Part shown: positions 782 to 19,178 of the stretch, one piece after another | Position numbering within the stretch: the stretch's first letter is position 1 | Layout: each line of letters opens with the position of its first letter | Source: a virus | IMG/VR virus record: IMGVR_UViG_3300028840_002776 | Coordinates: 1-48,293 of that record | DNA: 48,293 nucleotides | Reading direction: 5' to 3' (one strand) | Position numbers and translations under genes: made by a program | The notes under the pieces: generated by a model | Databases searched by the model: none | What the model was told of the DNA's origin: nothing | What the model saw: the letters and a program-made list of their open reading frames with translations, nothing else

Positions 782-1271
782 CCTTCTCGTCGGAGAGCGC
801 TTCAACCAGCGGACGTGGCGACCTAGCCTATTCGCGATTCCTTCTGCAAACTACGTGAACGTCATGACGCGGCTGGGTGCGTTTCCCGCGGGTCACTCAC
901 GCGTGAAGCTGGAGTCGCTCGGCGTGCGCTGGACGCAGTCGATGAACCTGCTTCCGCCCGACCCGCAGGGGGTCAAGTGGAACGCCGAGCTGGCGGCGAC
1001 GGTCGCCGCGTACCTGATGCTCCACACGGCGCACGACCTGTTGTGGCTGGCCGGCATACGGGTGGCCCGTGCGTTCGGGATCCGTGCAGACGAACAATTG
1101 TACTTTCAGCCTCTGTCGAGCGAATCGGGAGCGTGGGAACCGTCCTACGACCCGCCGCGGCTGTGTGTAATCGTCCCTCACCCGTCGGGACTGAACCGAT
1201 GGTGGAATCACGAAGAGAACGTCGAATGGGGCAGGCGCGAAATAGCGGACCTCACGGAGCAGTTGAGATGA
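774..1271 (+). CDS. Uracil-DNA glycosylase superfamily-like protein
   Basis: 165 aa. The pattern fits the uracil-DNA glycosylase fold: an N-terminal VGER segment (residues 5-9), an NLLPP segment (58-62), a helix ending in RVARAFGI (97-103), and a C-terminal HPSGLN motif (136-141) resembling the conserved His motif of the superfamily. Proteins of this shape are common in phages but uncharacterised, and the catalytic water-activating residue is not obvious, so activity is uncertain. It lies between dCMP deaminase and DNA polymerase, overlapping both (8 nt and an ATGA overlap). Possible roles are removal of uracil produced from dCMP metabolism, or recognition of a modified base. The role is inference; the fold call is moderate. 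Confidence 0.65.
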   Translation: MTSLLVGERFNQRTWRPSLFAIPSANYVNVMTRLGAFPAGHSRVKLESLGVRWTQSMNLLPPDPQGVKWNAELAATVAAYLMLHTAHDLLWLAGIRVARAFGIRADEQLYFQPLSSESGAWEPSYDPPRLCVIVPHPSGLNRWWNHEENVEWGRREIADLTEQLR

Positions 1272-3196
1272 TCGAATTCGACAACGGCGGGCGCATGGTG
1301 GAGTGCGTTGAAGAGCTACCCGATCTTCGCGGGTCGCACAAACTATATCTCGATCTGGAGACTACGTCCGGCGACCCTCGAAAGAATTCACTCAACCCGT
1401 GGTTCGATTGCGACATACTAGGCATCGCGGTCACGTGCGACGACCTACCGATGTCGTGGTACGTGCCACTCCGACACCAGCACGGCGCTAACCTTGCTCT
1501 TCTGAACGTGACTAAGTGGCTCGAAGACACGGTGTCGACGTGTCGGGCGTGGGTCAACCACAACGTGAAGTACGACGCACACGTCCTGAAGAACCGCACC
1601 GGGATCGACCCGCCCGAGGTGCTCGTCGACACGGTGACGCAAGGAAAGATCATCGACTCCGACCGGATCATGAGGGGTGGGTACTCCCTTGCTGCGCTCA
1701 GCAAGGGGTGGCTTCACGAAGACATTCGTAAGTACGAAGAAGCGCTCAAGCCCTACCTGGTCAAGAACAAGGACTACGGCGCCATACCCGCCGACATTTG
1801 CGCAGAGTACGCCTGTCAGGACGTCGTGACGGGCCGACGGCTTTTCAAGTACGAGAACGAGAGGTGCCCGGAGCAGTGCCGTCAGGTATGGCGCACAGAG
1901 GTGGCCCTGACCCGTGTGTTGTACGACATGGAGCAGCACGGAATGCGAGTGGAGCCGCAGGAACTCAAAATTACGGAACTCGGCATTCTTCGCAAACTGA
2001 TGGAAATAGATGCTGAGCTCGCCGAGCTCGCCGGCAGGTCGTTCAGACCTCACGTGAACGAGGACTGCTTCGACGTGCTGTGTAACCAGTTCGGTCTGCC
2101 CGTGGTCGCGTGGACCGACGACGGAAATCCGTCATTCGACAAGGCGGCGATGGCACAGTATGCGGTCCACCCGAAAGCCCCCAAGGACGTCGTACGCCTG
2201 GTCATGAGCTATAGGCAGCTCAACACGCTGAATAACTTTTTCGTGACTAAGTATCAGAAGTGCAGCGTGAACGGCCGTCTCCACCCGTTCTACAACCAGG
2301 CCATCCGTACCGGTCGCATGTCGTGCAAGGAGCCCAACGCGCAGCAACTCAATGCGGCGGCCAAGCGTCTCATCCACCCGTCGCCTGGCTGTTCTTTCAT
2401 TACAGCGGACTATTCCCAGATCGAGTTTCGCGTGATCGTTCACTACATCCAAGACGCAGAGGCCATAGCCGCGTATGCGGAAAACCCCGACACAGACTTT
2501 CACGCCTGGGTCGCCGACTTGTGCGGGATGAAGCGGAAGCCTGCCAAGACGATGAATTTCATGATGGGGTACGGCGGAGGCAAAAAGACAACTGTTGCAA
2601 AGATCTCGATGGATGAAACGGTGGTTGGTGACCTTCAGGAAAAGATCGAAGCACTGATAGCGGAGAGTAAGGTGACGAGAGAGGAAGAGAAGGAAGTATT
2701 CGAGCACCTCTGTCGACAGAGAGCCGAAAAGGTCTATGCGTCCTACCACTCGGCCTTGCCCGGGCTCAAGAGAACCGCCCGTCGAGTTAGTCGTCGTGTC
2801 CAAGACCGCGGGTTCGTGTTCAACGCGTACGGCCGGCATCGTCACTTGCCGGCTGCTGCGGCGCATCGAGGTTTCAATACGATATGCCAGTCGACGGCGG
2901 CTGACCTTATGAAAGAGCGCACCGTCGCCTTGGCCCGTGCCTGTCAAGGAACACCGATTAAGCTAACGGCGAGCGTTCACGACGAGACAGTTCTCGAAGC
3001 GCCGACAGAGATCGCCGAGGATCCTCGCGTCGTGCGTGACATCGTTAACATACTGGAGTCGCCCGAAGTCGAGCTTCGTGTCCCGGTGCGCTGCGACGTA
3101 GGCGTCTCCGACGTGGACTGGCTCTCGGCCTCTAAAGCAGCGGGCGTCATTTCATACGACAAGAATTCCTGTGGAGATCTTGAATATCTCCGGTAG
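1268..3196 (+). CDS. Family A DNA polymerase with 3'-5' exonuclease
   Basis: 642 aa, a T7-gp5-sized replicative DNA polymerase. The exonuclease domain is complete: Exo I LDLET (D29, E31), Exo II NHNVKYD, Exo III YACQD. The polymerase domain has motif A DYSQIE (D381), an O-helix matching R-K-F-Y (RKPAKTMNF then YGGG), in which Phe sits at the position that excludes dideoxynucleotides, and motif C HDE (571-573). The ATG at 1268 forms an ATGA overlap with the preceding stop; the longer open frame upstream would overlap that gene wholly and is not used. It acts with the primase-helicase and SNF2 helicase encoded at the other side of the junction. A run of untranslated sequence follows its stop. 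Confidence 0.96.
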   Translation: MIEFDNGGRMVECVEELPDLRGSHKLYLDLETTSGDPRKNSLNPWFDCDILGIAVTCDDLPMSWYVPLRHQHGANLALLNVTKWLEDTVSTCRAWVNHNVKYDAHVLKNRTGIDPPEVLVDTVTQGKIIDSDRIMRGGYSLAALSKGWLHEDIRKYEEALKPYLVKNKDYGAIPADICAEYACQDVVTGRRLFKYENERCPEQCRQVWRTEVALTRVLYDMEQHGMRVEPQELKITELGILRKLMEIDAELAELAGRSFRPHVNEDCFDVLCNQFGLPVVAWTDDGNPSFDKAAMAQYAVHPKAPKDVVRLVMSYRQLNTLNNFFVTKYQKCSVNGRLHPFYNQAIRTGRMSCKEPNAQQLNAAAKRLIHPSPGCSFITADYSQIEFRVIVHYIQDAEAIAAYAENPDTDFHAWVADLCGMKRKPAKTMNFMMGYGGGKKTTVAKISMDETVVGDLQEKIEALIAESKVTREEEKEVFEHLCRQRAEKVYASYHSALPGLKRTARRVSRRVQDRGFVFNAYGRHRHLPAAAAHRGFNTICQSTAADLMKERTVALARACQGTPIKLTASVHDETVLEAPTEIAEDPRVVRDIVNILESPEVELRVPVRCDVGVSDVDWLSASKAAGVISYDKNSCGDLEYLR

Positions 3197-3265
3197 CGAA
3201 ATCTTTCAGATGAATGAACACTTTCCCCTTTACAGAAACTCCGTAATCGGGGCGGAATCAACAGG

Positions 3266-3283
3266 GGCGCCCGTACGGGCGCC
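3266..3283. promoter_or_regulatory. 18-bp perfect palindrome
   Basis: GGCGCCCGT followed directly by its reverse complement ACGGGCGCC. It has no spacer and no following T-run, so it is not a normal terminator. It may be a protein-binding site or a short hairpin with a GTAC loop, 70 nt after the polymerase stop. Function unknown. Confidence 0.6.
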
Positions 3284-3455
3284 GTACAGCCCGTATATCT
3301 CCGAGAGGGCGCGAGATCACGGCTCAGATCGTCGTTTCAATAACACGGTTTATAATACCAGTTGCTCCGATCTCCGCACTCCGGGCGTGTACGGGCCGTA
3401 TACGCACGTACCCGAATCCCTTGGAAATGTTCGGAGTTTTGTCGATTCGGCGGGG

Positions 3456-3484
3456 TTGACAACCCGCGAAATCTCTGGTACAAT
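3456..3484 (+). promoter_or_regulatory. Sigma-70-type promoter driving the hammerhead region
   Basis: TTGACA at 3456-3461 and TACAAT at 3479-3484, separated by exactly 17 bp. This is one base short of full consensus. Expected start is about 3491. The next features downstream are an untranslated leader, the two ribozymes and the gene at 3820. It is the only strong promoter visible between the polymerase and the sigma factor gene, so it probably drives early or middle expression by host RNA polymerase. Confidence 0.8.
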
Positions 3485-3496
3485 GCCCTCAGGGCA
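3484..3496. promoter_or_regulatory. 13-bp inverted repeat at the promoter start point (possible operator)
   Basis: TGCCCT-C-AGGGCA is a perfect inverted repeat that begins at the last base of the -10 box and covers the expected +1. That position suits an operator or an initially transcribed hairpin. No repressor gene is recognised in the genome, so a bound host or phage protein is inference. Confidence 0.5.
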
Positions 3497-3714
3497 ATTG
3501 ACAACTGGATCGTCGGAGCGATGCACGGCACGTAGTTCCCTTCGGAGGAGCGAGAAGCTGAAGCGACAGCCAACGGGCAAGGATGCCAGTCAGAGTCGTG
3601 CGTCGCGGCAATCGAGCTGGACCGTGAATTGGGCAAGGTCGCGAGCAGAATTGTTCGACGCAGAGTCGACCGGTGGTAGTGTCTACAGTTTTCAATCCTT
3701 CTTTTTTGTGCTAA

Positions 3715-3781
3715 GCCGAAAAGCGACGGAGTTACACGCTCCGCCGCTTCGTCGTGGGTGGTTCCCGCGGCCTGACGAGGC
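3715..3781 (+). ncRNA. Type II hammerhead ribozyme, copy 1
   Basis: All core elements are present in type II order (open at stem II). GCC (3715-3717) is followed by GAAA (3718-3721), stem III (3722-3731 with 3739-3748; one A-C mismatch in ten pairs), then the UC cleavage dinucleotide (3749-3750), stem I (3751-3758 with 3764-3771; eight pairs, two of them G-U) and CUGACGA (3772-3778). Finally GGC (3779-3781) pairs with the initial GCC as stem II. The predicted cut is between 3750 and 3751, leaving a 2',3'-cyclic phosphate and a 5'-hydroxyl. Hammerheads of this type are known from phages and bacteria. The match is by eye, not by a covariance model, but no core base is violated. Confidence 0.93.
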
Positions 3782-3819
3782 AGCCTTCCTCGATTCTACA
3801 CTCCATAGGAGACGAGACA

Positions 3820-4242
3820 ATGGCGAAAAAGACCCGTAACACGCAGACACAGGCCCCCAAGGCAAAAGCTCCCTCGGCCGCCCCCGGCGCTAAGGCTCCC
3901 GAAGCCGCGAAGGGCAAGACCGAGCGCATCGCCTACCCCGTGCCGGACGGCGGCCTGTCGGAATTCCCGAAGGACTTCGACGGGAAGAAGCACAAGACCC
4001 TCAAGCGGGGCGACTTCGCCGACGAGACCGTGTGGCTCGAGATGAAGGCGACCGAGTGCGACAAGCGGGCCGCCGCGTACCGCGCCGAAGCGACCGAGAT
4101 GAAGAAGCTCGGGACCGTGAAGGAGCGCGCCAAGGCCAAGCGCCTGCTGGCCATGCACAAGCGCATGGCGGAGCTCCAGGAGCAGCTCAAGAAGGACGGC
4201 GTCGACGTCTACGCCCTGCTGTCCGCTACGTCCGACGAGTAG
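3820..4242 (+). CDS. Unknown basic protein encoded between two hammerhead ribozymes
   Basis: 140 aa, not recognised. Residues 1-35 are Lys/Ala/Pro-rich and look disordered, resembling a nucleic-acid-binding tail. Residues 36-65 are a short Gly/Asp-containing segment, and residues 70-130 are a highly charged helix, probably a coiled coil (repeated E/K with A, M and L). The ATG is preceded by the strong site ATAGGAGACGA at about 8 nt. The gene lies wholly inside the 525-nt segment released by the two flanking ribozymes, with the second ribozyme starting 3 nt after its stop. Its mRNA would therefore be cut free of upstream and downstream RNA. High expression is likely. A structural or nucleoid-like role is possible but unsupported. 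Confidence 0.85.
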   Translation: MAKKTRNTQTQAPKAKAPSAAPGAKAPEAAKGKTERIAYPVPDGGLSEFPKDFDGKKHKTLKRGDFADETVWLEMKATECDKRAAAYRAEATEMKKLGTVKERAKAKRLLAMHKRMAELQEQLKKDGVDVYALLSATSDE

Positions 4243-4244
4243 AG

Positions 4245-4310
4245 TTGCCGAAACGCGGGGAGGGCACCCCGCGTCGTCGCCGGTCGGCTTCCGGCGGCCT
4301 GATGAGGCAA
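4245..4310 (+). ncRNA. Type II hammerhead ribozyme, copy 2
   Basis: Same architecture as copy 1, with a different sequence in the helices. UUGCC (4245-4249) is followed by GAAA (4250-4253), a perfect 7-bp stem III (4254-4260 with 4267-4273), UC (4274-4275), an 8-bp stem I (4276-4283 with 4291-4298; one G-U), CUGAUGA (4299-4305), and GGCAA (4306-4310), which pairs with UUGCC as a 5-bp stem II. The predicted cut is between 4275 and 4276. Stem I pairs differ from copy 1 by compensatory changes (G-C to C-G at the sixth pair, G-U to C-G at the fifth), which is independent support for the fold. Confidence 0.95.
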
Positions 4311-4333
4311 GCCCTTGCAGAGGAGCACAGACG

Positions 4334-5096: not shown

Positions 5097-5517
5097 TCTT
5101 CAAGAACTCAAAGACTGGGCGGCTAAGCGACACCGACACTGGTGTCACCGTCTCCAGACAATAGGCGAAGTTCTCGAGATGGAGTTCACGCCGCCTAAGT
5201 GCGAGTTTTCGACACGCACGTCGAAGTCCGCGGGCGTATACTTTCCCAAGGAACGGAAATGCCGGTACTACCTCGCCTACATAATTCTAGCCGGAAAGAA
5301 GTACGACGAGACCATCGCCCACGAGATCGCCCATTCCTTCGTTTATCAGACGAAGATCCGGGCGGCCTGTCACGGCGACCTGTTCCGATTCGTCGTTCAT
5401 CGCATGTGCGGTTTCGGAAACCACAAGTGCACGCACGACCTCAGTACACACAAGGCCAAGAAGCTCAGCAAGCTGCTTCGCCTGATGGAGAAGATGAATG
5501 GCAACGGTAAGGTCTAA
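5083..5517 (+). CDS. SprT-like zinc metalloprotease-fold protein
   Basis: 144 aa. It carries the HEIAH motif (H80-H84) and a third putative zinc ligand H97 in AACHGDLF, which is the SprT/Spartan arrangement. Family members degrade proteins crosslinked to DNA or act in DNA transactions. Four Cys residues (C21, C40, C60, C96) occur, but no clear C-terminal zinc ribbon. The start at 5083 has GGAGGG nine bases upstream and is preferred over an in-frame ATG at 5005, deep inside the previous gene. It overlaps the DNA ligase gene by 20 nt, which fits a role in phage DNA replication or repair. Confidence 0.85.
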   Translation: MTMSDLQELKDWAAKRHRHWCHRLQTIGEVLEMEFTPPKCEFSTRTSKSAGVYFPKERKCRYYLAYIILAGKKYDETIAHEIAHSFVYQTKIRAACHGDLFRFVVHRMCGFGNHKCTHDLSTHKAKKLSKLLRLMEKMNGNGKV

Positions 5518-6319
5518 GAACTGGACCGGCCAAGACGCCCGTTTCGCGCACGTGAAGCGAGACGGGCACTTTTTATGCGTCCGCAAAGCGAGAACTGGTC
5601 TCGTGTCTTGCCACACTCGGCACCCGCACGACGTCACAGACAAGCTTCGCGACCGCGGCTGGTACCTGAACGTATTCCGGCGTGCGCCGGCCGGGACGAC
5701 GATTCTCGGGGAACTCTGGTACCCCGGGAAACCGGCGTCCTACGTCAAGACAGCGATGAAGGAACACGACCCGCGTCTGCGGTTCGGCGCCTTCGCCCTG
5801 GAGACCGCCCCTGCGGACGCTTCGCTCTTGGAGATCGAGTCGCTGTGCGTCCTGTGGGGCGTAGAGTTCCTGCCCTTCTGGATCACGGCCGGGGCGTACA
5901 CGCCGCAGTCGATCGTCGACATGTTAACGCGTACGCCCCAGGAGAACGTCGAGGGCGTCGTCTTCAAAGACGGAAATCTCCTCAACTGGCGTAAGTGGAA
6001 GCCGGTAAAGACGATGGACCTCGTCATCGCGGGGTACCACCCCGGCCGTGGCAAGTACTACGGCGGGGTAGGGGCGCTCCGATGCGTGACCTCAGAGGGT
6101 CGCGAGGTGGCCCGCGTCTCGGGGATGGACGAGCCGACCAGGGACTGGGTCGGGGAGCATCGAGAGGAGTGTCTGGGCCTCGTCGTCGAGGTCGCCTACC
6201 AGTACGTAGGAGCCGGTGGTCGGCTCCGCCACCCTCGCTTCGTCGGATTCCGGGACGACAAGCAGCCGGAGGAGTGTACATCGGATCAGGACCTGGACCT
6301 GGAGGAACACTACAGATGA
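5498..6319 (+). CDS. ATP-dependent DNA ligase
   Basis: 273 aa, a small ATP-type ligase. Motif I is KRDG (K20 would be adenylylated), motif III is near LGELWYP (about 69-76), motif IV is EGVVFK (about 152-157), motif V is WRKWKPVKTMDLVI, and an OB-fold follows (about 185-273). The length is like other minimal phage ligases with no extra DNA-binding domain. It would seal nicks during phage replication and repair. The downstream kinase starts with an ATGA overlap. No motif residue is missing, so activity is likely. Confidence 0.88.
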   Translation: MATVRSKNWTGQDARFAHVKRDGHFLCVRKARTGLVSCHTRHPHDVTDKLRDRGWYLNVFRRAPAGTTILGELWYPGKPASYVKTAMKEHDPRLRFGAFALETAPADASLLEIESLCVLWGVEFLPFWITAGAYTPQSIVDMLTRTPQENVEGVVFKDGNLLNWRKWKPVKTMDLVIAGYHPGRGKYYGGVGALRCVTSEGREVARVSGMDEPTRDWVGEHREECLGLVVEVAYQYVGAGGRLRHPRFVGFRDDKQPEECTSDQDLDLEEHYR

Positions 6320-6972
6320 AATACACGAAGTGCTGTCCCGACGCGGAGTATCAGGCTTACTGGCTCCGCAAACTTCCGCCGGCGTACAGGCCGGCGGACG
6401 TCAAGTTCGTGCCGCCGAACAAGCTGGAGTACGAGGAGATCGACGGGTCGACGCCCAACGACTGGCGTCTCGTTCACAATGCCGCGCACAAGGCCTTCTG
6501 GGGCGAGAGGATAAGAGGCATCGACGAGACGCACGTCTTAGACTACGTGGAGTATGTGCTCTTAAAGGGCCGCACGCTCCTATCTGCGGCGGAGCAGCTG
6601 AGACTGATGCGTCTGTTAGGGTCCCTCCGTCCGACAGACCTCACGCCCGCCTATGCGACGCACGGCGACTTGACTCTAGAGAACACCTTGCTAGTCGAGG
6701 GCCAAGTAGTGTTCATCGACCCGGGCCACGACCGCGGCCTGCAATGCCGAGAGATCGACGAGGCTAAGATCTTACAGTCGCTCGACGGCTGGGACTACGT
6801 CAGGCGGCCGCGCTGCTGCCAGCCCGTCGAGCAGCCGCACGGCTTTCCGGCGCGGAGGGTGCACTGGATCTTGCTGGCGTCCCACTACGTGCGTCTGTTG
6901 TGTCACCAGCACCCGGCCGTCGCGATGAACTTCGCCCGAGGACGCCTCTCGCAGCTATTGGAGACGTTGTGA
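6316..6972 (+). CDS. Aminoglycoside/choline-kinase-like small-molecule kinase
   Basis: 218 aa with the C-lobe signature of the APH/choline kinase family: HGDLTLEN (H116, D118 catalytic, N123) and IDPG (D135 metal ligand). The N-lobe is short. It opens a run of overlapping genes (kinase, HAD phosphatase, nucleotidyltransferase, glycosyltransferase, sulfotransferase), so it probably phosphorylates a sugar, polyol or amino alcohol for nucleotide activation rather than an antibiotic. A parallel is the LicA/LicC pair for phosphocholine. The substrate is inference. The frame is open upstream, but the ATG at 6316 overlapping the ligase stop is the natural start. Confidence 0.8.
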   Translation: MKYTKCCPDAEYQAYWLRKLPPAYRPADVKFVPPNKLEYEEIDGSTPNDWRLVHNAAHKAFWGERIRGIDETHVLDYVEYVLLKGRTLLSAAEQLRLMRLLGSLRPTDLTPAYATHGDLTLENTLLVEGQVVFIDPGHDRGLQCREIDEAKILQSLDGWDYVRRPRCCQPVEQPHGFPARRVHWILLASHYVRLLCHQHPAVAMNFARGRLSQLLETL

Positions 6973-7325
6973 AAAAGAAGACCTACATAGTCGACCTGGA
7001 CGGGTGCGTCTTACAGCACTACGGCCGCGGGCCGTCCTACCAGTGGAAGACGTGCGTCCTGCTGGACGGCGTCAAGGAACAGTTCGACCGGTGGGAGATG
7101 GACGGTCACTGCGTCGTCCTGATGACCGCACGCAAGGAGTGCTGCCGGGCTGACCTCGAGGAGACGCTCCGTGCGCACGGTCTCTTCTGGGACCGCCTGG
7201 TGATGGGAGTCACCAGCGGCGAGCGGGTGCTGATAAATGACAGTAAGCCGGGTTACGAGCCGTCGGCCAGGGCCGTGACGTTGGAGAGAAACCGGGGACT
7301 GGCCTGCCTGGAGGGAAAGATATGA
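6969..7325 (+). CDS. HAD-superfamily phosphatase, glycan-precursor type
   Basis: 118 aa from a GTG start that overlaps the kinase stop. The nucleophile motif is VDLDG (D9, D11), then an LLDGVKE segment, the motif II-like MTARKE, and INDSKPGYEPSARA near the end, a signature of small HAD phosphatases found next to sugar nucleotidyltransferases in capsule clusters. Expected activity is dephosphorylation of a sugar or polyol phosphate. It is followed by the nucleotidyltransferase with a 4-nt overlap. The substrate is not predictable. Confidence 0.82.
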   Translation: MKKKTYIVDLDGCVLQHYGRGPSYQWKTCVLLDGVKEQFDRWEMDGHCVVLMTARKECCRADLEETLRAHGLFWDRLVMGVTSGERVLINDSKPGYEPSARAVTLERNRGLACLEGKI

Positions 7326-7924
7326 CTACTGGAATAGTTCTGGCAGCCGGGGAGGCGACGCGCTTCCCCAACAAGCTGCTCCTGCCGATAGCCCACGACA
7401 GGATCGTGATAGAATCGGCCATCAACTGGCTCAAGGCCGTGACGAAGCACATCACAGTCGTCGTACCGCTCGGCGACGTTCTACGCGAGGTGCTGACGGC
7501 GCGGGGCCACGACCTGCACTACGTGACACAGCCCGTCGCCCGCGGCGTGCCGGACGCGATACAGCTGTGCGCCGGCTACGTCCGGGACCACGCGTTGGTC
7601 ACGTTCGGCGACAACGTGTACGACTGGGAGACCGTGAGGGCTTACGAAACCTACGGCACCGTTCGCAAATACGAACACGACGCCGACATGGACGGGTGGT
7701 GCGGCCCGTACGGGTGGGTCGAGCGCGGCCACCCCGACAAGACCTTGACGTTCGCCGGTCACATGCTCCTCTCGCGATGGCAGATGGAGCAGGCCGACGA
7801 GACACAGTCCACCGTTCGGTTCATGAACGAGATCAAGCTCTGTCACGAGCTGTCGGAATCGCGGTGGTACGACCTTGGGACCCCGGAACGATACCTCAGA
7901 TATGTCAGAGAGGAGATGTCATGA
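7322..7924 (+). CDS. Sugar/alditol-phosphate nucleotidyltransferase
   Basis: 200 aa. The N-terminal LAAGEATRFPNKLLLPI matches the NTP-binding loop of NTP-transferase proteins (GxGTR...PK pattern, slightly altered). FGDNVYDW is the metal-binding Asp segment. It would activate a phosphorylated sugar, polyol or choline-like compound as an NDP or CDP derivative. It sits between the HAD phosphatase and a glycosyltransferase, with overlaps at both ends (ATGA to the next gene). The canonical G-x-G-x-R is degenerate (GEATR), so the base specificity and substrate are open. Confidence 0.85.
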   Translation: MTTGIVLAAGEATRFPNKLLLPIAHDRIVIESAINWLKAVTKHITVVVPLGDVLREVLTARGHDLHYVTQPVARGVPDAIQLCAGYVRDHALVTFGDNVYDWETVRAYETYGTVRKYEHDADMDGWCGPYGWVERGHPDKTLTFAGHMLLSRWQMEQADETQSTVRFMNEIKLCHELSESRWYDLGTPERYLRYVREEMS

Positions 7925-9102
7925 GAATCGTAGTGAGCAAGACGGGGTCCGCGTGGCACCTAGACCGCAAGATCGCCTCTCCCGTCGGCGAGCAGCGCGA
8001 CGCCACGGGGATCGCCTTCGGCCTGCGAGCCGCCGGTCACGACGTCTGCCTGCTGGGACGTCTCCGCGGCGAACTGGAGGGTTTCCACCACGTGGACTGG
8101 TGCGTGAAAGGATCGTACGTGTACGACGATCACGCGGACGCCGCCGTGGAGGAGTACGAACGCGTGCTTCGCGAGGTCAGGGATTGGAGCCCCGACGCGA
8201 TCGTGAACTCGGTCGGCGCCTGCCCGACCTGCAGCTGGGTTCGCAACGACAGGGCCGTACGCGTGCAGGACTTCGCCGCTAAGTACGTGGCGCCCCTCCT
8301 GTACGTCTACTGGAAGACCGGCTTGCCTCGTGTCTGCGTGATCAACGATCCGCGGAGCTACCCGCGCGACCACGAGATGTTGGACTGGCCGGCTTGCAAG
8401 CCGAGGGCCGTGCTCTCCCAGGAGAACAACGTCATCAGGCGCCGCGTTCTTCGTAAGACCTACGACATTCACGCGGCGTACGCCGGCTGTGAGAACTGGT
8501 GGAGTTTCGACGAGCCGCCTCGACCGGAGGCTAACACCGGCGAGGTGCCGATGCTCATCATCGCACATTCCCACATGAGGGACAAGCGACTGGAAAAGCT
8601 CCGGGACGAGGTCTGGTCCTGGATCCTGCGTGACGTCGACGACTACGTCATCTACGGCCGCGGGTGGGAAGACTTCTCGGGCTACAACCCGGAGCGCATG
8701 CCCGGGCCCGTGCACCCCGACGAGGTGTTCCCGAAGCTTCGCACCGGCGTCTGCGGACCGATGATTCCCATCTCCGACGGCTTCATCACCGGGAAGCTTC
8801 GACAGTACCTGGTCTCCGGGTGCCTGCCGCTGCCGTACGGCCGAGGCGACGAGTACCTGACCTACGACCGACAGGAGCACCACGTCCCGCTGAGTCACGA
8901 GCTTCGCTTCGTCGACTCACAGGGTCTGGGCGCCCTGGTTCGCCGGGCCGCGGTCGAGCCGGACTGGCGGCGCGGTCATGTGGACCGGCTGCTGGAACGC
9001 ACGACGCCGAACTTTCAGAAGCTGCTCGACTGTGTGGAGTACTTCGCCGATCGGGACGCGGCGCCGCGGTTCTCCGAGTTCGGAGGGTACGAGCGATGCT
9101 AG
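7921..9102 (+). CDS. GT-B-like glycosyltransferase
   Basis: 393 aa. The C-terminal half has the donor-binding pattern of GT-B transferases: YGRGW around residue 243, then a PDEVFPKL segment and FITGKLRQYLVSGCLPLPYG, matching the 'fit for K-x-E-x-x-x-x-G-x-x-P' layout of this fold. The N-terminal half starts with a Rossmann strand (RIVVSKTG) and has a GIAFGLRAAGH segment like acceptor domains. The donor is likely the nucleotide-activated compound made by the three genes upstream. The ATG overlaps the previous stop (ATGA), and the end overlaps the sulfotransferase by 7 nt. The fold call is moderate and the acceptor is unknown. Confidence 0.72.
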   Translation: MRIVVSKTGSAWHLDRKIASPVGEQRDATGIAFGLRAAGHDVCLLGRLRGELEGFHHVDWCVKGSYVYDDHADAAVEEYERVLREVRDWSPDAIVNSVGACPTCSWVRNDRAVRVQDFAAKYVAPLLYVYWKTGLPRVCVINDPRSYPRDHEMLDWPACKPRAVLSQENNVIRRRVLRKTYDIHAAYAGCENWWSFDEPPRPEANTGEVPMLIIAHSHMRDKRLEKLRDEVWSWILRDVDDYVIYGRGWEDFSGYNPERMPGPVHPDEVFPKLRTGVCGPMIPISDGFITGKLRQYLVSGCLPLPYGRGDEYLTYDRQEHHVPLSHELRFVDSQGLGALVRRAAVEPDWRRGHVDRLLERTTPNFQKLLDCVEYFADRDAAPRFSEFGGYERC

Positions 9103-9662
9103 TCGGGACAAAGTTCTGTCTGTGCACGCCCGCCAAGTGCGGGACGCGTAGCGTCGAGGCCATGCTCCGGCCGGATCACGCGTCGCTGCACTACCCGCGG
9201 CACGGCACCGTGCACCCGTTCGACGGGACGCGGCGCATCATGCTAGTCAGGCACCCGCACGACCGGCTGCTGTCGCACTTCGCGTACAATCACCGGCTGC
9301 GGGAACGGGGCGCCGGCATCTGGGCCGCCAAGTACAGCGAGAGCCTCGCCTCGTACTGCGAGGCCGTACTGTGGCACCGGGCGAACGCGCCCTACTGGAT
9401 CCACACGTGCAACCTTACGGAGATGGCCGCGGTCTTTCGGCCCGACGTCGTCTTCAAGCTGGAGCACGGTCTGGACGCGCTTCGCAGATACCTGAAGAAA
9501 CGCTTCGGCCTGCCGCTGCCGCGTACGCCGCACGTGAACAGGACGCGTCGCGGACCTCGCGGCGACCTGAACGAGCTGTCGCTCGCGCTGCGACGGAGGG
9601 TGCTCGACTGGCTCGCCCCCGATCTGGAGACTTTCGACTATGAGGGAATCCGACTGGACTAG
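9096..9662 (+). CDS. Small sulfotransferase
   Basis: 188 aa. The 5'-phosphosulfate loop is TPAKCGTRSVEAM (residues 11-23) and the 3'-phosphate motif is RHPHDRLLSHF (R52, S60), as in PAPS-dependent carbohydrate sulfotransferases. The protein is short but has both PAPS-binding motifs and the C-terminal part of the fold. It would transfer sulfate from host-made PAPS to a glycan hydroxyl. It ends the first glycan cluster, directly after a glycosyltransferase. It is one of three sulfotransferase domains in this genome. Confidence 0.88.
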   Translation: MLVGTKFCLCTPAKCGTRSVEAMLRPDHASLHYPRHGTVHPFDGTRRIMLVRHPHDRLLSHFAYNHRLRERGAGIWAAKYSESLASYCEAVLWHRANAPYWIHTCNLTEMAAVFRPDVVFKLEHGLDALRRYLKKRFGLPLPRTPHVNRTRRGPRGDLNELSLALRRRVLDWLAPDLETFDYEGIRLD

Positions 9663-11022: not shown

Positions 11023-11195
11023 CCGCGCACAAGGAGTGGTACGTCGTTCGCGGGACCGTGGCTCACATTCGCCGCGTCTCGACCTTCTTTACACGCGCCC
11101 AGGCAGAAGCGTACGTCGCGAGGCAGCAGGAAATGTTTCCGTACGACGAGTACGTGTTGCTCCGAGTAGAAAAAATCTTTCCTAGAAGGGGTTGA
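11019..11195 (+). CDS. Small unknown protein upstream of the sigma factor
   Basis: 58 aa (start ATGA-overlapped with the preceding stop), not recognised. It reads like a single beta-alpha-beta unit: WYVVRGTV strand, a FTRAQAEAYVARQQEM helix, and a YVLLRVEKIF strand, a pattern seen in many small phage proteins. Its stop codon lies within the -35 element of the promoter at 11192, so the end of this gene and the start of the sigma promoter share bases. Confidence 0.7.
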   Translation: MTAHKEWYVVRGTVAHIRRVSTFFTRAQAEAYVARQQEMFPYDEYVLLRVEKIFPRRG

Positions 11196-11220
11196 CAAGA
11201 TGAACGTCTCGTTGTATAAT
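11192..11220 (+). promoter_or_regulatory. Full-consensus sigma-70 promoter for the sigma factor gene
   Basis: TTGACA (11192-11197), 17 bp, TATAAT (11215-11220): both hexamers and the spacing are perfect. The expected transcription start is about 11227, which is the A of an in-frame ATG of the sigma gene, so transcripts from here may be leaderless. Host RNA polymerase should recognise it at once, which suits early expression of a phage sigma factor. Confidence 0.88.
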
Positions 11221-17021: not shown

Positions 17022-18288
17022 GTCGTGGACTAAGTTGAGATACCATGAGGGCCAGGCACGGCTGTGGCGCACCAGAGCCAGGTTCGTCGCGGTAGCGTGC
17101 GGGCGCGGTTCTGGAAAGACTGAGCTAGCTCGTCGTCGCATAGTTCGGTTTCTCCCGATCCGTAAGCCGTGGCCTGATCCGATGTATTTCTACGCGTTAC
17201 CGACTTACTCTCAGGCGCGGCGTGTTGCCTGGCGGAAGATAAGGGACCTCATCCCTCCGGACTGGGTCTCGAAACTCAACGAGTCGAACATGGTCGTCGA
17301 CACCGTCTTCGGTTCGTCGCTTTACATCGTCGGGATGGACAAGCCGCAGCGCATAGAGGGCGACCAGTGGGATGGTGGCGTGATCGACGAATCGTGCGAT
17401 CAGCGACCGAGGTCGTTCGATCTCAGTGTAAGACCCGCCCTGTCCCACAGAGACGGCTGGTGCTGGCGGATCGGCGTTCCGAAGAGGTACGGCGTCGGCG
17501 CTCCGGAGTTTAAGACGTTCTTTGATAAGGGAATGACCGGCGACGACTCGAGAGTAGAGGCGTACACGTGGCCCAGCTCCGACATACTGACCGCGGAGGC
17601 CATAGAGTTCGCCCAGCAGACTCTCGATGCGCGAGACTACAATGAACAATATAACGCGCAGTGGGAGACGGCTTCCGGTCTGATCTTCTACGCTTACGTA
17701 CGGGCAGACAACGTTCGGCGCGTGGACTACTTCAAGGATCGGCCTTTGCTAGTTGGTTCGGACTTCAACGTGGACCCGATGGCGTGGGTAGTTGCACAGC
17801 GCGATGAGGATAAGCTGTATGTTCTGGACGAGCTGTTCTTGCGGAACACTAACACGCAGCAGACTCTTGATGAACTCTTCAAGAGGTATGGACGACACGA
17901 GTCGGGGTTTGAGTTCTACGGCGACGCTACAGGAAGGGCGCGTAAGACGTCAGCCTCGTCTAGTGATTACATTCAGATAAGACAGGACTCCAGGTTTGCG
18001 GGCGCTAGAGTCTTCTATCCTAGGAGCAATCCGCCCGTGGCGGACAGGTTCGCAGCGTGTAATGCGATGTTTCGCAATGCAAAGGGCGTGCAGCGCCTGT
18101 TCGTCGACCCGCGATGCGTCAACTTGATCAGGGATCTGGAGACCAGGGCTTACCGCGAAGGTACAAGGGAACCCGACGATTACGGGGACGTCGGTCATAT
18201 CACAGACGCTCTCGGTTACGTCGTTTATCGCCTGTTCCCCGTCGCGCTTTCTTACGGTTCCGCCCCTCCGAAAGTAAAAGTCAGATGA
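17011..18288 (+). CDS. terL: Terminase large subunit
   Basis: 425 aa from a GTG start. The ATPase domain has Walker A CGRGSGKTE (30-38) and Walker B GGVIDES (about 121-127). The C-terminal nuclease domain has GSDFNVDP (about 251-258) with GDATGR and DVGHITDALGY supplying the further acidic ligands. It cuts concatemeric DNA and drives it into proheads through the portal. The GTG lies 11 nt inside the previous gene. Both activities look intact. The packaging type (cos or headful) cannot be read directly, but the circular assembly fits headful packaging or cohesive ends. Confidence 0.95.
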   Translation: MLTRSWTKLRYHEGQARLWRTRARFVAVACGRGSGKTELARRRIVRFLPIRKPWPDPMYFYALPTYSQARRVAWRKIRDLIPPDWVSKLNESNMVVDTVFGSSLYIVGMDKPQRIEGDQWDGGVIDESCDQRPRSFDLSVRPALSHRDGWCWRIGVPKRYGVGAPEFKTFFDKGMTGDDSRVEAYTWPSSDILTAEAIEFAQQTLDARDYNEQYNAQWETASGLIFYAYVRADNVRRVDYFKDRPLLVGSDFNVDPMAWVVAQRDEDKLYVLDELFLRNTNTQQTLDELFKRYGRHESGFEFYGDATGRARKTSASSSDYIQIRQDSRFAGARVFYPRSNPPVADRFAACNAMFRNAKGVQRLFVDPRCVNLIRDLETRAYREGTREPDDYGDVGHITDALGYVVYRLFPVALSYGSAPPKVKVR

Positions 18289-19178
18289 GCTTCTTTGATA
18301 GAGTATACGAGCCAGCCGTACGGTACGGGGAGGAGTACCCTATCTTCAATCGCGTCACGCTGGAAACCTCTTCCTGGTGCACCAGGAAGTGCCGGTTCTG
18401 TCCGTCCAGTAAGCGACGCGAACGAAAAGTAATGTCCGACTCGCTGTACTATCGTATCATAGATCAGTTGCACGAGTTAGACTTTCGAGGAACGGTCCAG
18501 TGGTTCTTACTGAACGAGCCGCTTCTCGACCCGGACTGGTATCGCCGTGTGCGGACCCTTCGGGAAGCTTGTCTTAAGTGTAAGATAATGCTGACCACCA
18601 ACGGTGACTTGCTGGACGGCGCAGACGGCGTACTTAAGATGTTCGCGGCCGGCGTGAATTCCGTGAATCTGAACGCATACGACGATCGTGACGGGCGGCT
18701 GAAGAGATACAGGACTTGGTCTTTAGAGGCGGCTGGAATAGACGAGGACATTAAGATCAAATCTAACATGAAGTGGAGCGTCGAAGGCCCACGGGCCAAG
18801 TACTTGACGGTATCGGACAGGAGAAGGCCGAGAGGTCTTCACAGCTGGGGCGACGCTAAGATAGCTGCGCTTGATTGCGTGCGTTCTAAGCCTCGGTCGA
18901 AGTACTGTGCTAGACCGCACAGGCATGTGGTCGTCATGTACGACGGTCGGGTGCCGTTGTGCTGTGCAGTGGACACCTCGCGTCCAGACTTTGAGTCGAT
19001 GGGCGATCTTAACACGCAGAAACTGACAGAGGTATGGAACGGCGAGGAGATGTTCAGGTATAGATACTTATTAGAGAACGCCGTTCGCGAGGGCCAATGT
19101 GCGGGATGTGTTGAGACGTCGGCGTATCCTCACGTGGTACGGGGCGTCGTTCCATTGGAGAGATGGAAAGATGGGTAA
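18285..19178 (+). CDS. Radical SAM enzyme with SPASM-like C-terminus
   Basis: 297 aa. The cluster motif CTRKCRFC (C32, C36, C39) binds the SAM-cleaving iron-sulfur cluster. The FLLNEPLLD and LTTNGDLL segments fit the radical SAM barrel. The C-terminal part has C-x-x-x-CC-type and late CAGC cysteines with VPLCCAVD and EVWN (SPASM/twitch layout) for an extra cluster. Relatives modify peptides, proteins or sugars. Here it sits between terminase and portal with overlaps of 4 and 8 nt, so it is an integral part of the packaging/head operon. The substrate is unknown: a virion protein or the phage glycan is possible. Confidence 0.9.
   Translation: MSFFDRVYEPAVRYGEEYPIFNRVTLETSSWCTRKCRFCPSSKRRERKVMSDSLYYRIIDQLHELDFRGTVQWFLLNEPLLDPDWYRRVRTLREACLKCKIMLTTNGDLLDGADGVLKMFAAGVNSVNLNAYDDRDGRLKRYRTWSLEAAGIDEDIKIKSNMKWSVEGPRAKYLTVSDRRRPRGLHSWGDAKIAALDCVRSKPRSKYCARPHRHVVVMYDGRVPLCCAVDTSRPDFESMGDLNTQKLTEVWNGEEMFRYRYLLENAVREGQCAGCVETSAYPHVVRGVVPLERWKDG

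Follow-up and report, generated by a model that had tools for sequence, protein, structure and literature searches.

Two type II hammerhead ribozymes, HHR1 and HHR2, lie on the same strand to either side of a single small gene in a tailed-phage genome, and the analysis shows the motif, its position, its orientation, the conservation of its fold and the recurrence of such elements beside homologues of the same gene in related phages. The pair is probably to be understood as operon punctuation, whereby one transcript would be cut into mRNAs of one gene each, with a hairpin capping every new end. The window analysed is the 48,293-base IMG/VR virus record IMGVR_UViG_3300028840_002776, of environmental origin and assigned to a tailed phage from its terminase, portal, tape measure, primase and family A DNA polymerase genes. 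Features of the ribozyme region are collected in Table 1.

Table 1. Features around the bracketed gene, in window coordinates (complementarity only for the pseudoknots)
Feature	Positions	Strand	Details
Sigma70-like promoter	3456..3484	+	TTGACA-17-TACAAT, TG ahead of second hexamer; 11/12 consensus bases; consensus match only
Non-coding leader, promoter to HHR1	3485..3713	+	From reading frames and folding (z = -0.05)
HHR1, type II hammerhead	3714..3789	+	RF02276, 34.5 bits; exact core; predicted cut 3750/3751
HHR1 stem II	3715-3717/3779-3781	+	GCC/GGC; 3 bp
HHR1 core	3718-3721, 3772-3778	+	GAAA, CUGACGA
HHR1 stem III	3722-3731/3739-3748	+	10 positions, one A-C mismatch
HHR1 cut-site bases	3749, 3750	+	U, C
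HHR1 stem I	3751-3758/3764-3771	+	8 bp
HHR1 pseudoknot	3760..3785	+	Loop I GGUU (3760-3763) with AGCC (3782-3785)
Bracketed gene, 140 aa	3820..4242	+	Shine-Dalgarno AGGAG 3807-3811; homologues in related phage contigs
HHR2, type II hammerhead	4246..4317	+	RF02276, 29.3 bits; exact core; predicted cut 4275/4276
HHR2 stem II	4247-4249/4306-4308	+	GCC/GGC; stem of 5 bp
HHR2 core	4250-4253, 4299-4305	+	GAAA, CUGAUGA
HHR2 stem III	4254-4260/4267-4273	+	7 bp
HHR2 cut-site bases	4274, 4275	+	U, C
HHR2 stem I	4276-4283/4291-4298	+	8 bp
HHR2 pseudoknot	4286..4313	+	Loop I GGCUU (4286-4290) with AAGCC (4309-4313)
Next gene, 86 aa	4334..4594	+	Shine-Dalgarno GAGGAG 4320-4325; 58-nt 5' leader after predicted cleavage

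Results

Structure and conservation of the two hammerheads

Both elements show the type II order of parts, with stem II open and loops closing stems III and I, and both carry the catalytic core (CUGANGA, GAAA and UH at the cut site) without deviation. The original prediction of two tandem type II hammerheads around one small gene, complete in GAAA, in UC at the cut site and in CUGANGA, is thus borne out in location and in core. Its description of well-paired stems holds for the pairing overall, with the reservation that stem II of HHR1 has just 3 bp and its stem III contains a mismatch; the HHR1 core was also missed by single-sequence folding. The compensatory changes that it named are real, yet few: two aligned pairs differ on both sides between HHR1 and HHR2 (stem I pair 6, G-C against C-G; stem III pair 1, A-U against C-G), and stem I pair 5 is U-G in the one and C-G in the other. 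Covariation inside the window is accordingly modest. It is strong over 68 distinct ribozymes, in which all three stems use several Watson-Crick pair types per position and the paired columns covary, in support of the claim that selection has retained the folds. These counts were taken from the coordinates of a structural descriptor, a MAFFT alignment having placed the cut site wrongly in several rows. The descriptor itself requires pairing, so that information comes only from the diversity of pair types and from the pseudoknot, on which it places no demand. A pseudoknot of at least 4 bp can form in 55 of 71 distinct ribozymes, compared to 28.7 on average and at most 42 in 1000 shuffled re-pairings.

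HHR1 and HHR2 were the sole matches at E ≤ 1 when the window was searched with all 4227 Rfam families, with E-values of 0.0024 and 0.055 over that whole set and of 5.7e-7 and 1.4e-5 against RF02276 alone. Core, type II order, stem lengths and pseudoknot agree with RF02276, the differences being the longer, imperfect stem III of HHR1 and scores that for both elements lie under the family's gathering cut-off of 37 bits. The Rfam type II search proposed at the outset therefore returned the expected family and no other, but below its threshold in both cases, which is literally the outcome that the original prediction had named as speaking against itself. That cut-off serves curation and does not define a structural feature; it is a strict one here, the same fold in related arrays scoring 18-58 bits. 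Given these scores, specificity was tested separately with the descriptor (GAAA, UH and CUGANGA plus paired stems) on 1.38 Mb of related phage DNA, a total that includes overlapping loci. It found 93 matches, on one strand per locus and in coding sense, as compared to 0 on the opposite strand and 0 in reversed sequence. A chance resemblance of elements that are not ribozymes, for which the sub-threshold scores are the argument, is contradicted by this result together with the exact cores, pseudoknots, covariation and homologous placement, and it can be considered ruled out for practical purposes.

Gene setting in the window

The putative promoter is a strong one by its consensus match, and a transcript from it would start ∼260 nt 5' of the HHR1 cut. 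The stretch 3197-3713 that contains this promoter appears non-coding; no ordinary gene is found in the leader 3485-3713, and folding of positions 3490-3712 is no better than that of shuffled sequence. HHR1 is preceded by a non-coding leader, without an upstream gene, and is not placed on a stop codon. A ∼260-nt non-coding RNA (3485-3750), its 3' end formed by the stem III hairpin, would come free between promoter and HHR1 cut. HHR2 begins 3 nt past the stop codon of the bracketed gene, and that stop ends 7 nt before the HHR2 core; the original placement "3 nt after the stop" is correct for HHR2 and does not apply to HHR1. The 86-aa gene that follows has no PHROGs or Pfam match.

Elsewhere in the window, the family A DNA polymerase (1259-3193) has ∼26% identity to Acinetobacter phage polymerases, one of them annotated DpoZ. 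A gene cluster at 5498-9662 encodes an ATP-dependent ligase, a HAD phosphatase with a weak PNKP-type match and a MobA-like nucleotidyltransferase, along with kinase-like, glycosyltransferase-like and sulfotransferase-like proteins (the last three read by eye only). The idea of RNA repair by the HAD/PNKP-like domain and the nearby ATP-dependent ligase was considered and rejected, the HAD match being below cut-off and the neighbours resembling sugar-modification genes. A radical SAM protein with a SPASM domain occupies an unexpected location at 18114-19175, with terminase and portal genes on either side, and a sigma70-type promoter of perfect consensus (TTGACA-17-TATAAT) is found at 11192-11220.

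Anchoring to stop codons

In 56 of the 71 distinct ribozymes, an open reading frame has its stop codon ending 2-9 nt, mostly 2-5 nt, before the core GAAA (G12). Random positions on these strands show the same spacing in 2.5% of cases, and GAAA sites in 4.9%; reading frames of at least 50 codons were counted, a mechanical threshold and not a gene call. Where the sequence reads TAG-CC-GAAA, stem II has as its outer base the final nucleotide of that stop codon. Mostly 18-53 nt past the core (median 32) comes the next start codon that has a Shine-Dalgarno-like sequence, and predicted cutting leaves, as medians, 28 nt behind the stop and 60 nt ahead of the following start. Except for the ribosome-binding site, the ribozyme is the entire intercistronic spacer. 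The stop-to-core spacing of HHR2 is looser than in most ribozymes compared.

A terminating ribosome covers about a dozen nucleotides beyond the stop codon. This footprint corresponds to the stem II strand plus GAAA, which raises the thought of translation-gated cutting: the ribosome would hold the ribozyme unfolded, and cutting would occur only in the gaps between ribosomes. Cutting would then be a readout of upstream-gene translation and would fall selectively on transcripts that are translated poorly. The 2-9 nt spacing of most stop codons and the sharing of a base between stop and stem II are consistent with such gating. Compact phage genomes, however, favour zero spacing regardless, and HHR1 lacks an upstream gene altogether; we regard the idea as doubtful. 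About equally doubtful is the broader proposal built on it, in which stop-anchored type II hammerheads serve one phage lineage as translation-sensitive punctuation that is occluded by the ribosome, cuts once free into hairpin-capped single-gene mRNAs and replaces promoter and terminator at gene borders.

The bracketed gene as a bounded unit

The bracketed protein is predicted to comprise an N-terminus that is disordered and a helical hairpin modelled with confidence (AlphaFold mean pLDDT 80). No function was obtained from PHROGs, Pfam, PDB sequences or viral folds, and a single-sequence search of viral contigs found no relatives. Related phages were collected by searches with the polymerase and then by an alignment-based search with the bracketed protein, and 27 other loci of the compared set have homologues of it. 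The gene stands directly 3' of a canonical hammerhead in 7 of the 28 phages (window included) and directly 5' of one in 4, with both sides occupied in two (the window and L101). Copies with altered cores are found beside it in three more, on both sides in L063 and behind the gene in L044 and L083. Where no ribozyme precedes the gene, a strong promoter just upstream is frequent (e.g., L033, L054). A stable hairpin (dG ≤ -20) within 110 nt past the stop is present in 26 of 28 family members, compared to 109 of 338 control genes; in ribozyme-bearing genomes that hairpin is partly the ribozyme itself. Since borders of its own recur, as promoter, hairpin or ribozyme, the gene is a unit for which the hammerhead is one possible border: it is kept bounded throughout, and a ribozyme can replace a boundary. 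The exchange of promoter for ribozyme is based on few phages, and the window has both together.

Arrays in related phages

The view of a matched pair as something special did not survive comparison, for the pair marks the lower end of a range extending to 8-9 ribozymes per viral contig. Viral contigs searched with a strict pattern gave 18 loci, among them records with 9, 8, 5 and 4 type II hammerheads. Arrays of 2-9 hammerheads are placed between successive genes in related phages and other viral contigs, all in coding sense: 9 in L036 (its record G013), 8-9 in L037, 5 in L038 and in L055/L138, and 4 each in L150, L155 and L157. No other Rfam ribozyme class reached gathering scores in the array loci. 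In bacterial genomes, the strict pattern occurred at two loci only, one of which, in a Sphingomonas MAG, was confirmed by the descriptor, with the end of a stop codon 5 nt ahead of the core.

Canonical type II hammerheads, 1-5 each, are present in 14 of 52 polymerase-bearing loci, and altered cores in 3 more. L044/L053 and L083 have an extra U ahead of stem II, and in L063 UUGAAUAA replaces CUGANGA; in L083, A15.1-U16.1 is apparently exchanged to U-A. These elements (just before 10451 and just after 10915 in L063, after 4390 in L044, after 10076 in L083) take the same positions as canonical ones and may be active variants or decayed copies.

The distribution of ribozymes on the polymerase tree is patchy, which suggests their repeated gain or loss and implies that the hammerheads are not essential. 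Near-identical copies also occur inside one phage (L039, L146, L150). Both observations would fit spacers of little or no function, multiplied locally through duplication and recombination and retained since intergenic cutting does little harm. We consider this quite improbable, given that diverged copies retain intact cores and covarying stems and that all ribozymes are in coding sense at gene ends, with the same gene family flanked repeatedly.

Discussion

The evidence favours operon punctuation by HHR1 and HHR2 as the probable reading. A transcript starting at or before the promoter at 3456 would run through 3820-4242 into the genes beyond, and cutting by both ribozymes would free a 525-nt one-gene mRNA (3751-4275) with a 69-nt leader and 33 nt past the stop. 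The upstream mRNA would end in the stem III hairpin, 33 nt past its stop codon, with a 2',3'-cyclic phosphate; the downstream mRNA would start exactly at the stem I hairpin, with a 5'-OH. Type II is the sole circular permutation to place closed hairpins on both products (III upstream, I downstream), and by this order of parts each cleavage product would keep a complete hairpin at its new end. Such ends are expected to slow exonucleases and 5'-end-dependent decay, and each small mRNA could thereby have a stability of its own and be translated independently of its neighbours. Cleavage is predicted for HHR1 and HHR2 from their intact cores and the published activity of similar tandem hammerheads; its purpose, we infer, is mRNA stability and independence. 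Points against punctuation are the patchy tree, the location of HHR1 off a stop codon and the loose stop spacing of HHR2.

The same 525-nt RNA, with its 5'-OH and 2',3'-cyclic phosphate, could in principle be closed into a circular mRNA, either by its own joined hammerhead (5' half of HHR2 plus 3' half of HHR1) or by the host ligase RtcB. The joined ends do fold as a full hammerhead with a stem II of 6 bp, and stem II is cross-compatible in 34 of 40 adjacent ribozyme pairs. In the other 6 (from L037, L038, L153 and L157), stem II self-pairs and cannot pair across, and cross-pairing is therefore not required; likeness of stem II within one phage is explicable by duplication. Considering further that Perreault et al. 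2011 (PMC3088659) sought circular and spliced products and found none, we regard a circular mRNA as very improbable.

Closely similar arrangements have been described. Contrary to the original prediction, which took a phage gene bounded by a matched pair to be not well described, hammerhead clusters on either side of single phage genes were reported by Perreault et al. 2011 (PMC3088659), together with their cleavage both in vitro and in E. coli and a pseudoknot of loop I with nucleotides downstream of stem II. Their prophage clusters, like the present ones, involve at least two hammerheads, type II included, around single genes or short gene blocks, and their description of several neighbouring hammerheads flanking phage genes applies to the window and to many of its relatives. 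The identities of the flanked genes were not constant there, whereas here one gene family recurs across related phages. Their text does not take up the placement of stop codons, and no statement of such anchoring was found in the other papers searched, a set mostly outside the subscription literature. The type of arrangement was thus already described in 2011, and what is added is breadth, in arrays of related phages, together with the anchoring to stop codons and the recurrence of one gene family.

Retrozymes and viroid-like circular RNAs likewise have two hammerheads delimiting an RNA of several hundred nucleotides; the present case differs in having type II elements in a DNA phage operon, a protein gene inside, and no sign of an RNA replicon or circle. 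Self-cleaving ribozymes placed between or before bacterial genes split one transcript into separate mRNAs or standardise 5' ends, as in the RiboJ insulators; such designs are man-made and use other ribozyme classes or permutations. Ribozyme-assisted polycistronic co-expression is a further engineered case (Liu et al. 2022, cited in PMC12819055).

Lastly, the study has importance for a question standing since 2011, namely the role of phage hammerheads; why these are associated with phage genes, and with each other, was in 2023 still described as unknown (PMC10085705). Some relatives have a ribozyme at the border of this gene and others a promoter or hairpin, and the ribozymes are fixed to stop codons. 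From this follow clear predictions for translation coupling, for mRNA half-life and for sequencing of 5'-OH ends, whereby the old question is turned into specific tests.
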